64,000 nucleotides of DNA from Lactococcus protaetiae (GTDB lineage: Bacteria; Bacillota; Bacilli; Lactobacillales; Streptococcaceae), in assembly GCF_006965445.1 (NCBI RefSeq), contig NZ_CP041356.1, positions 1,302,001 through 1,366,000 on the forward strand, given 5' to 3'. Position 1 is the stretch's first letter. Each line of letters begins with the position of its first letter. The notes under the pieces were generated by a model, which ran no database searches, was not told the origin of the DNA, and saw only the letters and a program-made list of their open reading frames with translations. Below are positions 10,569-63,465 of the stretch, one piece after another. Both the position numbers and the translations under genes were made by a program.

Positions 10569-10624
10569 TTTTGTTCATTTTTTATACTAGTTTATCTTTA
10601 ATTTTACGCAGTAGAATTATTAGA

Positions 10625-10910
10625 AGAACTGCAGATATATTGCCTTTTGCTCTTGCTGCTTTAGCGCCAATGGCTATCCTATAAAGTCGGAAGTTCAAAT
10701 CGCAATCCAGCAGAGCTGGCAAGGCGAAATGACAAGCGCAAGAATGGGGTTGCGTGAAAACGTAAAAGCCATAGGGTTGAAGTGATTACTTCATTGGTGG
10801 GGATTCTTTCTCCTCCACCAATGTTAGTAGAACGAAAGCAGAGCTTAGTGCTGCTTATCCCACCACCTTATAGAGGTGGGGGAATTAGCACGCACTTGCT
10901 AAGTTAAAAG
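10625..10910 (+). repeat. mosaic hairpin repeat, copy 4 (contains a short complete beta form)
   Basis: The segment 10780-10906 is the most compact complete copy. It runs: terminal palindrome GAAGTGATTACTTC, stem ATTGGTGGGG/CCTCCACCAAT, the linker TTAGTAGAACGAAAG, GCTTAGTGCTGCTTATCCC, hairpin CCACCT-TATAG-AGGTGG and the end AGCACGCACTTGCT. Degenerate family pieces precede it. It ends within a few bases of the thioesterase stop codon. Confidence 0.8.
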
Positions 10911-11324
10911 TTAAACAGTATTAGGCACGATTGCGTTGACCACAGTGACCTGAGCAATCAATTGCTCTTTTTCATCTGTCACTTTAATCTCCCAGACGTG
11001 AGTGTGTCGACCTTTTCTCAGAAGTTGTCCTTTTGCGATGACAAAACCTTGCGCTTTTTTAGGATGTAGGTGGTTAGCAGTGATGGTCTGCCCGACGGCA
11101 AATTCATGTGGTACAATCAGTTGATTGCTTGCCATTCCTGCCGAAATTTCGCAAAAAGCAAGCGTTGCACCGCCATTCAAAAAACCTTGGGGTTGAGCAT
11201 GAAAATCAGAAAGTATCATGCGACTGACAAAATATTTAGCACTTTTGTCAGTACTGATAGAGCTGTTTGTCTGGTCAGTAAATAGCTCAAAGTCACTGAT
11301 ATTCAGCTGTTCAATCATATTCAT
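10911..11324 (-). CDS. hotdog-fold acyl-CoA thioesterase, probably DHNA-CoA hydrolase (MenI-like)
   Basis: A 137-residue PaaI/ComA2-type hotdog thioesterase. The signature GFLNGGATLAFCEISAG holds the HxGG-like turn and catalytic acidic residue of the family. It lies at the end of the menaquinone cluster, so release of 1,4-dihydroxy-2-naphthoate from its CoA ester is the likely role, closing the gap between MenB and prenylation. The function is inferred from context, because this family also hydrolyses other aromatic acyl-CoAs. The start at 11324 has GAAAGGAA eight bases upstream on the minus strand. A repeat block separates it from menC. Confidence 0.7.
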   Translation of the reverse strand: MNMIEQLNISDFELFTDQTNSSISTDKSAKYFVSRMILSDFHAQPQGFLNGGATLAFCEISAGMASNQLIVPHEFAVGQTITANHLHPKKAQGFVIAKGQLLRKGRHTHVWEIKVTDEKEQLIAQVTVVNAIVPNTV

Positions 11325-15436: not shown

Positions 15437-15460
15437 AAACTTTTCCTTTTATTAGTATTT

Positions 15461-15755
15461 TTTTATCGAAGTAAGTGCGTGCTATCTCCGCCCTTTGGGC
15501 TACGCGATGAAGTCAAGACTTATTCAGTGGGAGTTTCGTAAAACATTTGTCCATTTTCTCTAGTCGCTATCTTCGCTGCGCTACGCTGTCCGTTTGCTTA
15601 GCTGCTAAAGCAGCAAGAGCAAAAGGCAATTCGACTGATAAAAGGGCAACTCACCACTGAATTTAGTCGGACGAAATTCAAAGATTACCATTCCGACTAG
15701 GTGCTTCAGCACCTTAGCGAGGATGGACAGTGTAGCGAAGTGGAGATGACAAAAA
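15461..15755. repeat. mosaic hairpin repeat, copy 6
   Basis: It begins TCGAAGTAAGTGCGTGCTAT, then CCCTTTGGG, then an internally reversed alpha end GAAGTCAAGACTTATTCAGT, the ACATTTGTCC piece also seen in copy 1, and GCTGCTAAAGCAGC. It ends with TTTAGTCGGACGAAATTC and GACTAGGTGCTTCAGCACC. Segment order differs from the standard copies, so this is a rearranged copy. It lies in the upstream region of menB. Confidence 0.7.
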
Positions 15756-15756
15756 A

Positions 15757-16586
15757 TCATTCCTTTTCATTATAACACAAATATTCTGTCAGTATTTTAT
15801 TGTAAATCTCAGGATTTTCCAGATGGATATTATGGCCAACATGCTCAATATTGACTGTTTTAACATGAAGATAGGGAGCAAAAATTTCTCTTGCAATCTG
15901 AGTATATTTGGTATCCAATGTTCCCGAAAGATAAAGGAGCTCTGTGTTTATTTTATCAATTTTATCAGAAACATCTTTAAGTTGACCTTGTCCAGTTGCA
16001 CGCAGTGTGTTAGCAAGTGCGTGAGGAGCATTTGCAGCGCGACGTTGCCAGATTTGCTGCTGTAAGCGCTCTGACAGCTTTTTTTGACTATCAAAAAGGG
16101 CTAAATTTCCCCAGAAATCAGCAAACCAATTTGAGCCATTTGTAAGAATCTTTTGAGCGAGCGCCTCATCAGAAATTCGCCGCTTTTCACGTTCAATATC
16201 TGATGCCAATCCACTTCCTGTTGATTCTAAAATTAAATGCTCGACAGGAGCTAATGGAAAAGCAAGACAATAGCGTAGCGCCATCCGCCTCCCATTGAAT
16301 AGCCAAGAAGACTAAAAGGTTTTCCGTCAGCATACTGACAGAAAAGTTGATGAAGGGCTGTCAGTATATTTTCGAGTCTATAAGGTAAAAGCGTGCGAGG
16401 TTTTGATGAACGTCCGTGTCCGATAAGGTCAATGGCAAAAATCTGATAGCCTGAAACATCAAGCAAATCCCACGTGCTAGAGTCCTCCGAGAAACCATGA
16501 AGTGCAAAAAGAGGTTTGCCGCTGCCATGAGTTTTTACCGCGTATTTTAAGCCGTTAATTTCAAAAATTTGTTCAGTAAAATTCAT
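15757..16586 (-). CDS. menH: SHCHC synthase MenH, frameshifted
   Basis: An alpha/beta-hydrolase that eliminates pyruvate from SEPHCHC. The N-terminal half (16251-16586) carries [14 protein letters not shown], the oxyanion region, and the nucleophile elbow GYSMGG. The C-terminal half (15757-16284) carries the Asp and His regions ([21 protein letters not shown]). The two halves are in different frames. Adding one C at about 16287 restores [17 protein letters not shown] and one continuous protein of 276 residues, the normal MenH length. It overlaps menD by four bases. I think this is a base-calling error; otherwise the gene is inactive. Confidence 0.85.
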
Positions 16587-32918: not shown

Positions 32919-33117
32919 TTTATCAAAGCAAGTGTGTGCTATCTCCGCCCTTTCGGGCTCCGCTGTCGATGCTCGCTACGGTGCTAAAGCACCTAGTCGC
33001 AATCGCAATACTCCGACCTCTTAGGCCGGAGATAAAGCAACACTAAGCCTTGAATTTCGTCCGACTAAATTCAGTGGCGAGCTGAAACTCCCACTGAATA
33101 AGTCTTGACTTCATTCA
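32919..33117 (-). repeat. mosaic hairpin repeat, copy 9 (complete alpha form)
   Basis: A complete 199-bp copy. Read on the minus strand it runs: GAAGTCAAGACTT, stem ATTCAGTGGGAG with CTCGCCACTGAAT, TTTAGTCGGACGAAATTC, GCTTAGTGTTGC, hairpin CTCCGGCCT-AAG-AGGTCGGAG, GGTGCTTTAGCACC, GCCC-GAAA-GGGC, and AGCACACACTTGCT. Its first bases supply the TGA stop codon of the aspartate kinase gene. This copy and copies 10, 11 and 14 define the family best. Confidence 0.85.
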
Positions 33118-39852: not shown

Positions 39853-40142
39853 ATTTATCAAAGCAAGTGCGTGCTATCTCCGCCCTTTGGGCTCCGCTGT
39901 CGATGCTCGCTACGGTGCTACGTGCTTCGCACGCCGTTCTACGAACGGTCTACGCAACTTCGTTGCTCCATTGTCCGTTTGCTTGGCTGCTAAAGCAGCA
40001 AGAGCAAACGGCAAAGCACCTAGTCGCAATCGCAATTCCCCACCTCTTAGGTAGGGGATAAAGCAGCACTAAGCTTCGAATTTCGTCCGACTAAATTCAG
40101 TGGCGAGTTTAAACTCCCACTGAATAAGTCTTGACTTCATTT
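39853..40142 (-). repeat. mosaic hairpin repeat, copy 10 (complete alpha form with inserted hairpins)
   Basis: It has the same ends as copy 9 (AAGTGCGTGCTATCTCC at the left, ACTGAATAAGTCTTGACTTC at the right). Between GCTACGTGCTTCGC and the CACCTAGTCGC linker it carries about 90 extra bases: CCGTTC-TAC-GAACGG and GCTGC-TAAA-GCAGC hairpins. Comparing it with copy 9 shows the nested growth directly. Two overlapping frames inside (39827-40061) are not genes. Confidence 0.85.
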
Positions 40143-41164: not shown

Positions 41165-41706
41165 ATGGCTATTCCGACTTGGTAATTCAGTGCTATAGCC
41201 ACTTCGCATTGTTGCTTTGTCTTTTGTTCTTGAGTGGGACAACAAGGTTGCGTAGACCGTTCGTAGAACGGTGTGCAAAGCACATGAACTTGCCACTTTA
41301 TAGGATAGTCGTTTGTGTTAAAGCAGCAATGGATATGTTAGTTGTTTCATCTATTAGTAGCTTAGTGAAGTTGATGGTGGAGCAAAGCGGAGATAGAGCC
41401 TGTGGCGTGAAACGAACATAGACCGTTCAGAGAAATGGTGTAGAAAGTGCATGTCATGGCGATTTTTTCACTATGAAGTTAGTCAGTAACGTCAATCTGT
41501 TGTTAGTTTTTAACCAAGCAAGTGTTTGCTATCTTCGCCCTTTGGGCTACGCTGTCCATCCTCGCTATGGTGCTAAAGCACCTAGTCGGATTGGCAACTC
41601 TCCCACCTCTTTTAGGTGGAGGGATAGGCAACACTAAGCTTTGTTTTCGTTCTACTAACATCAGTGGGAGAGAAAGAATCTCCCACTGATGAAGTAATCA
41701 CTTCAA
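41165..41706 (-). repeat. mosaic hairpin repeat, copy 11 (complete beta form plus flanking debris)
   Basis: The segment 41508-41706 is a complete beta copy on the minus strand. Read from its right end it has GAAGTGATTACTTC (as AAGTAATCACTTC here), stem ATCAGTGGGAGA/TCTCCCACTGAT, TTAGTAGAACGAAA, CTCCACCT-AAAAG-AGGTGGGAG, GGTGCTAAAGCACC, CCCAAAGGG and AGCAAACACTTGCT. The 41165-41507 part contains older pieces, including GACCGTTCGTAGAACGG. Confidence 0.8.
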
Positions 41707-47160: not shown

Positions 47161-47183
47161 TAGCGGAGTAACTTCTAATACTG

Positions 47184-47311
47184 TTTAATTTCTAAATGTT
47201 CCATTTAGAAATTAAAGTTTGCGTTCCACGCAAACCACTTCTTGCGCAGGCGCAAGGCAGTATCTTTGCAGTTCAACTACTAAATCTGCAAAGCAGATTT
47301 AGAGGTGAACT
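47184..47311. repeat. run of four consecutive perfect or near-perfect hairpins before der
   Basis: TTTAATTTCTAAATG with CATTTAGAAATTAAA (15-bp arms, 47184-47216); GTTTGCGT with ACGCAAAC (47217-47235); CTTGCGC with GCGCAAG (47241-47256); and AGTTCAACTACTAAATCTGC with GCAGATTTAGAGGTGAACT (47270-47311). They are packed end to end with 2-3-base loops on a 128-base stretch. Confidence 0.75.
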
Positions 47312-47374
47312 AGTATAAAAGGAACTTTTAGAAGTTAAATAGTATTAAAACTTTGATATGAAAGTGAGAAAATA

Positions 47375-56218: not shown

Positions 56219-56318
56219 CTCTTGTGTGGATTTTCTGACGATAGACAGTCAGGTTAAATATAAGGTGGGAGTGCCCCAAAAGTCAGCTCATCTTAATGTT
56301 GTTCTGGGCGTTTGAAGT

Positions 56319-56469
56319 GAGCGCCCCTCGCATCTTGTAACTGAGTTCGGTGCGCTTGAAATTAGCGAAAATAGATAATTTCCAGAGCCGTGCTTCCGCA
56401 CGAACCTGTAATTTCCTAATTTTCATAATTTCAGGGCGAGCGCCCCTCGTATCTTGTAACTGAGTTCGG
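56319..56469 (+). repeat. 32-bp direct repeat in the rimP leader
   Basis: The phrase beginning GAGCGCCCCTCG and ending AACTGAGTTCGG occurs at 56319-56350 and 56438-56469 with one difference (CATC versus TATC). Each copy is preceded by a complementary GGGCG, making a GGGCG/CGCCC hairpin. CTCACATCTTAAAG just before rimP and infB resembles the same phrase, so they may be decayed copies. Confidence 0.6.
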
Positions 56470-56493
56470 AAGGCTAGAAACTTGTGAAAAAAG

Positions 56494-56818
56494 ATGAAGT
56501 CAAGACTTATTCAGTTGGAGTTTCAACTCCCAACTGAATTTAGGGTACAACCTCTAGGTGTAACAACTAAGCGACCTGTACGCAGCTAAAGCTGCAACAG
56601 TCTGCTTAACATCTTCGATATGAGGTCAACCCTGTCCCAGAAGCCTAAGTGCTAAAGCACTAACGCCCTAGGGCAGTCGGACGAAATTCAAGGCTTAGTG
56701 CTGCTTTATCCCCTGCAAGGGGTGGGGGTGTTGCGATTGTGACTAGGTGCTTCAGCACCGTAGCGAGCATCGACAGCGGAGCCCAAAGGGCGGAGATAGC
56801 ATGCACTTGCTTTGATGA
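56494..56818 (+). repeat. mosaic hairpin repeat, copy 14 (complete alpha form, expanded)
   Basis: GAAGTCAAGACTTATTCAGT with stem ATTCAGTTGGAGTT/AACTCCCAACTGAAT, then inserts (GCAGC-TAAA-GCTGC, AGTGC-TAAA-GCACT, CCCTAGGGC), then AGTCGGACGAAATTCAAGG, GCTTAGTGCTGC, CCCC-TGCAA-GGGG, GGTGCTTCAGCACC, CCCAAAGGG and AGCATGCACTTGCT. It lies in the leader of the rimP operon in the direction of transcription. Confidence 0.85.
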
Positions 56819-56917
56819 AATTTTGAACCTGCGCTAAGTGCAGAACTTAAAAATTTCCTTATTTTTCACAGTTTCTGAACGAACCTTCCTCACATCTTAA
56901 AGAAAAGGAGATAAAGT

Positions 56918-59379: not shown

Positions 59380-59835
59380 TTGAAGTGATTACTTCATCAG
59401 TAGGGGAGAAAGAATCCTCTACTGATGTTAGGGTACAACCTCACATCAAAGATATGAGGTCACCCTGTCCCTGAAGTCTATCTCGCTTTGCTCCGCTGTC
59501 GATTTCGCTAAGTTGCTAAAGCAACAAGCTCAAATCGCAATCGCTAAAGCGCTAAGACCCTAGGGCAGTAGAACGAAAGCAAAGCTTGCCATTTCGCCTT
59601 ATCGCTTTTAGCGAGTTGCGACTTCGACTAGGCACGTCCGTGCCATAGCGAGAATCGACAGCGCAGTGAAACGGAGATAGAGCGAATGGACAGCGTAGCG
59701 AAGCGAAGATAGTGCTGCTTATTCCTCCACCTAAGAGGTGGGGAAGTTGCCACTCCGACTAGGTGCTTTACCATCGTAGCGAGAATCGACAGCGTAGCTC
59801 AAAGGGCGAAGATAGCATGCACTTGCTTGGTTAAA
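59380..59835 (+). repeat. mosaic hairpin repeat, copy 15 (longest complete beta form)
   Basis: GAAGTGATTACTTC, stem ATCAGTAGGGGA/TCCTCTACTGAT, TTAGGGTACAACCTCACATC, GTTGC-TAAA-GCAAC, CGC-TAAA-GCG, CCCTAGGGC, AGTAGAACGAAAGC, an inserted block with GACTTCGACTAGGCACG, CCACCT-AAG-AGGTGG, TGCGAGAATCGACAGC, and AGCATGCACTTGCT. At 456 bp it is the longest complete copy. It is in the direction of infB transcription. Confidence 0.85.
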
Positions 59836-59899
59836 AATCATTATTTATCATTTTTACTATTTCCAAACAGGCGGGCTCACATCTTAAAGGAGGACTAAA

Positions 59900-62866: not shown

Positions 62867-63130
62867 GTTGAAGTTATTACTTCATTGGTGGGGATTCTTT
62901 TTCCCCACCAATGTTAGGGCCCAACCTCACATCAAAGATATGAGGTCACCCTGTCCCTGAAGTCTGAGCGCTAAAGCGCTAAGACCCTAGGGCAGTAGAA
63001 CGAAAGCGGAGCTTAGTGCTGCTATCCCGTCACCTTATAGAGGTGGGGGAATTGCGACTAGCCACTAAAGTGGCTAGTCGCAATCGATAGCGTAGCCCAA
63101 AGGTCGGAGATAGCACGCACTTGCTAAGTT
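62867..63130 (+). repeat. mosaic hairpin repeat, copy 16 (complete beta form)
   Basis: GAAGTTATTACTTC, ATTGGTGGGG/CCCCACCAAT, TTAGGGCCCAACCTCACATC, GCGC-TAAA-GCGC, CCCTAGGGC, AGTAGAACGAAAGC, CACCT-TATAG-AGGTG, an inserted GCCAC-TAAA-GTGGC hairpin, CCCAAAGGT and AGCACGCACTTGCT. Comparison with copy 4 shows two clean insertions. Confidence 0.85.
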
Positions 63131-63465
63131 AAAAAGTTCTGTCAATTTTGACAGAACTTATACTAGTTCATCTTTAATTTTTCCTAGAAAAGTTATTAGA
63201 TGGCTACGCTGTCCATTGGCTGTAAGCTGCTAAATCCGCAATGCCAAGTGGCAATTTCAGATATATTGCCTTGCGACAAATGGGAAAAACAGCGCTTTTC
63301 TCATCCACAACCTTCCACTTTATAGGATAGCTGTTTGCGCTAAATCCGCAACGGATTTGTTAGTTATTTCCTTAGTGGGCTCAGTGAAGTCGACGGCGTA
63401 GCGGAGTAATTTTCAAGTGTTGCGCTTGAAAGCTAAACAGGGTTAAATTTCAAATGAAAGGAAAA
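63131..63465 (+). repeat. further repeat debris and hairpin before rbfA
   Basis: A hairpin AGTTCTGTCAA/TTGACAGAACT (63134-63158), then the phrase TACTAGTTCATCTTTAATTT shared with the region near 10590, and pieces such as CCTTCCACTTTATAGGATAG and CAAGTGTTGCGCTTG. No gene is visible in this 335-base stretch. Confidence 0.6.

Follow-up and report, generated by a model that had tools for sequence, protein, structure and literature searches.

Two copies of an intergenic repeat in the window (the whole 64,000-nucleotide stretch analysed here, positions 1302001-1366000 of a 2.70-Mb genome assembled as a single contig) share both ends and differ in length, 199 bp at 32919 and 290 bp at 39853, which raises the question of how such a family comes to grow. 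The initial annotation had proposed that small hairpin units insert into an older element, so that the family assembles stepwise. The comparisons presented here make it fairly probable that this is a two-tier mobile repeat system, consisting of a base element and of hairpin units that nest.

The 290-bp copy and its relatives in the window

Aligned with MAFFT, the copies at 32919 and 39853 are separated by one large gap of 93 nt (39920-40012), lying between GGTGCT and AAAGCACC, and outside it by few mismatches and 1-nt indels, in agreement with the annotated excess of about 90 bases at one point. The insert contains CGTGC-TTC-GCACG, CCGTTC-TAC-GAACGG, a GCAA-CTTC-GTTGC hairpin and a GCTGC-TAAA-GCAGC hairpin. 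The hairpins are as first described, but they are read as one composite block and not as two separate hairpin insertions; a near-identical 93-nt block occupies the same point in at least 12 other copies. The base element itself, about 125 bp when bare, is non-coding, and the copies read lie between genes. The two copies comprise the following features:

39859-40138, plus strand: the reported copy, a base element (subtype A1) with nested units, between the AT dinucleotides 39857-39858 and 40139-40140
39876-40033, plus strand: hairpin unit with leader ATCTCCGC... and end ATCGC, inserted at base-element site 1 (GTGCT^AAT) and in turn interrupted
39920-40012, plus strand: composite unit of 93 nt, nested within the 39876-40033 unit at its tip loop (GGTGCT^AAAGCACC)
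39972-40013, plus strand: core bulged hairpin TGTCCGTTTGCTTGG-CTGCTAAAGCAG-CAAGAGCAAACGGCA, matching the unit covariance model with 50.6 bits (E 1.8e-9)
32924-33112, plus strand: shorter A1 copy with one unit (32941-33006) and AT duplications at 32922-32923 and 33113-33114

The unit at 32941-33006 is the uninterrupted, 66-nt form of the one at 39876-40033, and the whole 290 nt of the longer copy folds with a z of -8.9. A search of the genome with the 290-bp sequence gives 87 matches, the best at E 1.4e-149, and the A1 terminus has at least 189 genome-wide matches with 1 mismatch allowed, versus 0 for a reversed-pattern control; together with the lack of any match to the unit covariance model in 23 genomes from other families of the order, these counts argue that the family is not a product of chance.

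The reported copy lies between veg and a kinase-like gene, the latter 90% identical to its counterpart in Lactococcus taiwanensis and 87% identical to that in L. cremoris, which marks the genome as a Lactococcus; the same intergenic region is element-free in both of these species. The copy is missing from the sister genome G016 as well (306 nt here versus 1 nt in the orthologous intergenic region), where the empty site is imperfect, with about 25 flanking bases differing too. For the shorter copy at 32924-33112, the sister shows a clean empty site, AATTTTATTCAAAA.

A second pair, annotated as copies of 127 bp at 10780 and 264 bp at 62867 that differ by two clean insertions, proved to be just that: relative to the copy at 10776, the one at 62867 has 78 additional nt (about 62916-62993) where GATGTT meets AGTAGAACG and another 58 nt (63053-63110) where GGAAT meets TAGCACGC. 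These and further nested copies in the window are:

10779-10903, minus strand: bare A2 element flanked by TT dinucleotides, lying within a second repeat family (about 10582-10920)
62870-63128, minus strand: A2 base element in which 78 nt are nested at 62916-62993 and 58 nt at 63053-63110
59382-59830, minus strand: A2 composite of some 450 bp with heavy nesting, missing from the sister at a TT site
41512-41699, plus strand: A2 element whose site 1 holds one unit, not in the sister (193 nt extra)
56503-56820, minus strand: A1 composite with at least 3 nested units, part of a 404-nt block missing from the sister
15460-15760, plus strand: rearranged A1 composite holding a unit with the AACATTTGTCC leader (TCTAGTCGCT^), which is interrupted by another unit

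The tract at about 10582-10920 is missing from the sister as a single block of 339 nt. The second repeat family, ATACTGTTTAACTTCTAAAA...GTTAACTAGTAT, also hosts units (in the window at 10582-10920, 47170-47320 and 63158-63440; in the sister at 377735); one sister copy is flanked by a 3-bp TCA repeat, and the 10582 copy contains a whole base element. A third family, ending in CTCACATCTT, is found at 56240-56500 and 59860-59895 of the window and at 460730 in the sister, and one of its sister copies has a unit-like hairpin that is missing in this genome. Palindromes of the TGTCAGTACTGACA type, which look terminator- or operator-like, are also present, one 16-mer reaching 35 counts on both strands of a 464-kb sample of this genome (G000).

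The hairpin units, their targets and their fold

The units are about 50-95 nt long and differ in sequence. Self-comparison of 464 kb yielded 1454 copy pairs with one clean gap and 729 filled/empty junction clusters; at the 244 junctions that were refined, every main unit type recurs with exact ends, and about 20 distinct unit/host/site types were read. Units share one bulged fold and are found cleanly inserted not only in the base element but also in one another and in at least one unrelated repeat. They sit in the tip loop of another unit (GGTGCT^AAAGCACC, GTCGCT^AAAGCGAC, CCACT^AAAGTGG), in the arm of another unit (CGCTCT^AA) and in the centre of a base-element hairpin (GTTTC^AACTC).

The initial annotation had called for a search for preferred integration sites and for duplications. 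A preferred target, CT^AA, was found for one large class of units. The class-A leader (ATCTYCGC-like) is preceded by CT in 139 of 200 occurrences (background 5.7%), and the 8-mers found upstream are of 39 kinds; in the sister, CT precedes it in 10 of 24. Targets of another leader type (AACATTTGTCC) end in C. The units of the CT^AA class end in GGC or CGC and have one orientation relative to the target strand wherever they were read. The base element turned out to have a duplication of 2 bp and the units no clear one; many unit boundaries can be placed only to within 0-2 nt, so some unit types may make a duplication of 1-2 nt. Most units contain about two CTAA/CTRA sites, in the tip loop and in the arm, so that each insertion would bring new landing sites and nesting could repeat, feeding itself.

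The common fold was examined with 18 aligned unit cores. In the RNAalifold structure 97% of cells are paired, compared with 74% in shuffled and 20-41% in slid controls, and covariation is 0.655 versus 0.208 (shuffled) and at most 0.13 (slid), the slid control somewhat favouring a structure that was derived from that same alignment; 9 of the 11 pairs have double changes. Single-strand DNA folds agree among most of the sequence-unrelated units, and two of ten fold weakly, no better than their shuffles. The fold could be under selection as DNA or as RNA.

Matches to the unit covariance model occur in 16 of the 18 genomes of the genus (this one included) and in several genomes of a second genus, with weak matches in two others. 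G000, G007, G013, G016 and G034 count as unit-rich, G002 and G003 as unit-free. Density differs about tenfold between collinear regions, 98 units in 284 kb here versus 9 in 280 kb of the sister. Some other genomes have the hairpin without the base element. In G034, which belongs to the other genus, the veg orthologue is followed directly, on its downstream side, by related units (L074, about 577-634), again without a base element; veg is the gene that adjoins the reported element too. In G010 (L058, 587-960) a unit lies inside a 166-bp stretch that is repeated three times in tandem.

Comparison with the sister genome and the direction of change

The sister is collinear with this genome and 93.9% identical over 151 kb. 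Many elements are missing from it as blocks. Among them are loaded copies of up to 626 bp as well as bare ones of about 125 bp, which shows that the base element is mobile in both states. It inserts at AT (A1) or TT (A2) with a 2-bp duplication in either state, as several sites that are cleanly empty in the sister show (AT, for example, for the elements at 1334923, 1380407, 1406025 and 1433690; TT for those at 1445292 and 1393725). In being short, non-coding, present in many copies and flanked by a target-site duplication it matches a MITE; its ends show only a weak inverted match by eye, GAAGTCAAG versus CAAAGCAAG. Relative to the leading strand, base elements in a 664-kb sample of G000 favour one orientation by 67:29, for which insertion bias or selection may be responsible. 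A search of 664 kb for an autonomous relative met, between distant end pairs, with ordinary genes and with ORFs lacking a Pfam match, and the 0.4-4 kb gaps inspected as possible autonomous units resembled chance pairings of adjacent elements. Plasmids and phages have no match to the element, and viral contigs have no exact match to one unit pattern.

At one locus (1432078 in G000, 419984 in G016) the same element occupies the same place, bare in the sister and with two nested inserts in G000, at the very two points named in the initial annotation. All 10 copies sampled in G007 are exact short forms; their loci were chosen by matches to the uninterrupted part, which biases the sample towards short forms for sites 2 and 3, though not for site 1. 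In G000, two diverged subfamilies have sites 1-3 filled in some copies and empty in others, in various combinations; of 54 copies, 31 have an insert length of exactly 0 nt at site 2, and the others mostly have +61, +122-124 or +154.

The opposite course would be decay of one long ancestral element by precise loss of hairpin segments, as by replication slippage across stem-loops, which are prone to deletion. Real losses are seen: G000 lacks, at 1330339, a 43-nt hairpin retained in the sister, and there are remnants of 46 and 79 bp. Even so, decay from one long ancestor is highly improbable, since the same base would have to be hit every time, the bare sister orthologue points the opposite way and the sampled G007 copies are all short. 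Alternative units at one point argue against it as well (AGCACT^AAGC in the base element holds mostly a GGTGC unit in A1 and an ATCGC unit in A2), as does the finding of one unit type in hosts that are unrelated, among them a different repeat in G013. A phylogeny of copies showing such deletion had been named in advance as the evidence that would count against stepwise growth. The copy tree, rooted on G007, needs 19, 19 and 15 changes for sites 1-3, respectively; it is poorly resolved, with 4 of 64 branches starred and too few columns, and was set aside as formal proof of direction.

Another possibility is that composites formed once and then spread whole or by gene conversion, with few independent nestings. 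Loaded composites have moved whole since the split from the sister, and one unit in one site recurs often, as with a 54-nt unit in CCTC^ACATC that has more than 12 copies; many such filled copies could be one event spread by copying or gene conversion, which also counts against frequent nesting. The roughly 20 host/unit/site types speak against so few nestings, as do the mixed assortment of sites 1-3 in both subfamilies and the number of changes on the tree. Rather unlikely as the full account, whole-composite spread is true in part, and it complements nesting and does not replace it.

Nesting is supported by the bare and loaded orthologues, the swapped units, the G007 short forms together with the genomes that have hairpins but no base element, and the mixed sites, and the proposal of stepwise assembly is largely right; it has to be amended in that composites also move whole, that deletions occur and that a clear duplication, of 2 bp, accompanies the base element and not the small units. 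Many nests are inherited and not rebuilt, since whole composites are mobile as units.

Possible means of movement and relation to known repeats

In a two-tier system, hairpin units would nest at the second tier and whole composites would then be copied at the first, giving the growth that the initial annotation saw. Less certainly, a trans-acting enzyme would recognise the folded single strand and insert it where other hairpins expose their loops; such a single-strand step would be in keeping with the fold, the strictness of the end sequences, the loop targets and the lack of a clear duplication. Three observations weigh against this explanation. Some unit folds are weak, as noted above. The strands of the units divide 172:159 with respect to replication, without bias, where a lagging-strand mechanism might predict one. 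No known enzyme supports the step, given that Y1, TnpB and RVT_1 were not found here and that IS110, considered as the mover, does not track the units. The mover enzyme may be lost or lie outside the families tested.

Movement of REP-like units by a Y1 (RAYT) transposase of the IS200/IS605 type would fit the imperfect bulged hairpins, the lack of clear target duplication, the strict target 5' of the insertion and the insertion on the same strand as the target. Y1_Tnp (PF01797), however, has 0 matches in G000, against 5 positives among 14 control genomes, and none in G007, G011, G013 or G016; TnpB was found in one of nine genomes searched (G016) and not in this one; and the GTAG/GTGG foot is not evident in the units, whose aligned hairpins (aligned cores only) start TGTCC, TGTCG, TGACC or TATCC. 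We regard it as unlikely. Spread through RNA, by retro-insertion of small structured RNAs, has reportedly been suggested for the cyanobacterial SDRs, and would suit the RNA-like conserved structure, the strand-specific insertion and the absence of clear duplication; with no RVT_1 reverse transcriptase found in G000, G007, G013 or G016, it is very unlikely here.

The SDRs of Nostoc and relatives, reportedly described by Elhai et al. in 2008 (Genome Res 18:1484), are said to be cyanobacterial repeats of 21-27 nt that share a fold despite different sequence and nest in themselves. The likeness to the present units lies in very small hairpin repeats, one fold across sequences, exact insertion into repeats and nesting; the units here, compared by description only, differ in being about 50-95 nt long, in occurring in Lactococcus, in the CT^AA target and in riding on a mobile base element. 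Integron attC sites are recombined by IntI as a folded strand at GTT, whereas the unit targets here, the only feature compared, are CT^AA or end in C. Among the SDRs, SDR5 inserts exactly between bases 3 and 4 of HIP1 (PMC4390886), and the SDRs of Nostoc and relatives are also cited (PMC3116915).

BOX, RUP and SPRITE of Streptococcus pneumoniae and S. suis are small intergenic repeats of 67-637 bp, some variable in length, with target duplications for BOX and RUP and with elements inserted into one another (PMC3049150), in all of which they resemble this family. By description, BOX varies in length through gain and loss of boxB modules, whereas here diverse hairpins enter exact points. REP/REPIN sequences with their RAYTs (PMC3116915, PMC2817692, PMC6006769) are likewise bulged palindromes with many intergenic copies, and IS insertion into REP sequences is known (PMC1525189), but this genome has no Y1 transposase and its units no evident foot. 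In yeast mitochondria, as far as the consulted part of the source goes, GC42 is a 42-nt mobile palindrome, and GC clusters are merged, shuffled and proliferate fast between sister species by a transposition mechanism that is unresolved (PMC4478555). The mobile palindromes, merged units and rapid proliferation are shared; the clusters differ in their AG or ACT flanking duplications, in their organelle setting and in that no separate base element is reported in that part. None of the papers listed by searches of open-access literature, in which most subscription papers are not included, describes this repeat family in Lactococcus.

How very small bacterial repeats move, and by which enzymes, is mostly unknown. 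With empty sites in the sister, a tenfold difference in density and junctions exact to the base, the question can be put to the test in Lactococcus, whose genetics are established, and target sites supplied by the units themselves provide a concrete rule by which composite repeats may grow. It is a tentative, rather doubtful further step to see in these hairpins of about 50-95 nt a class of mobile DNA defined by structure, with varied sequences but one fold, moved as a single strand by an unrecognised enzyme that targets hairpin loops, and growing recursively; if this were true, such elements would bring their own landing sites with them and grow by inserting into themselves again and again.
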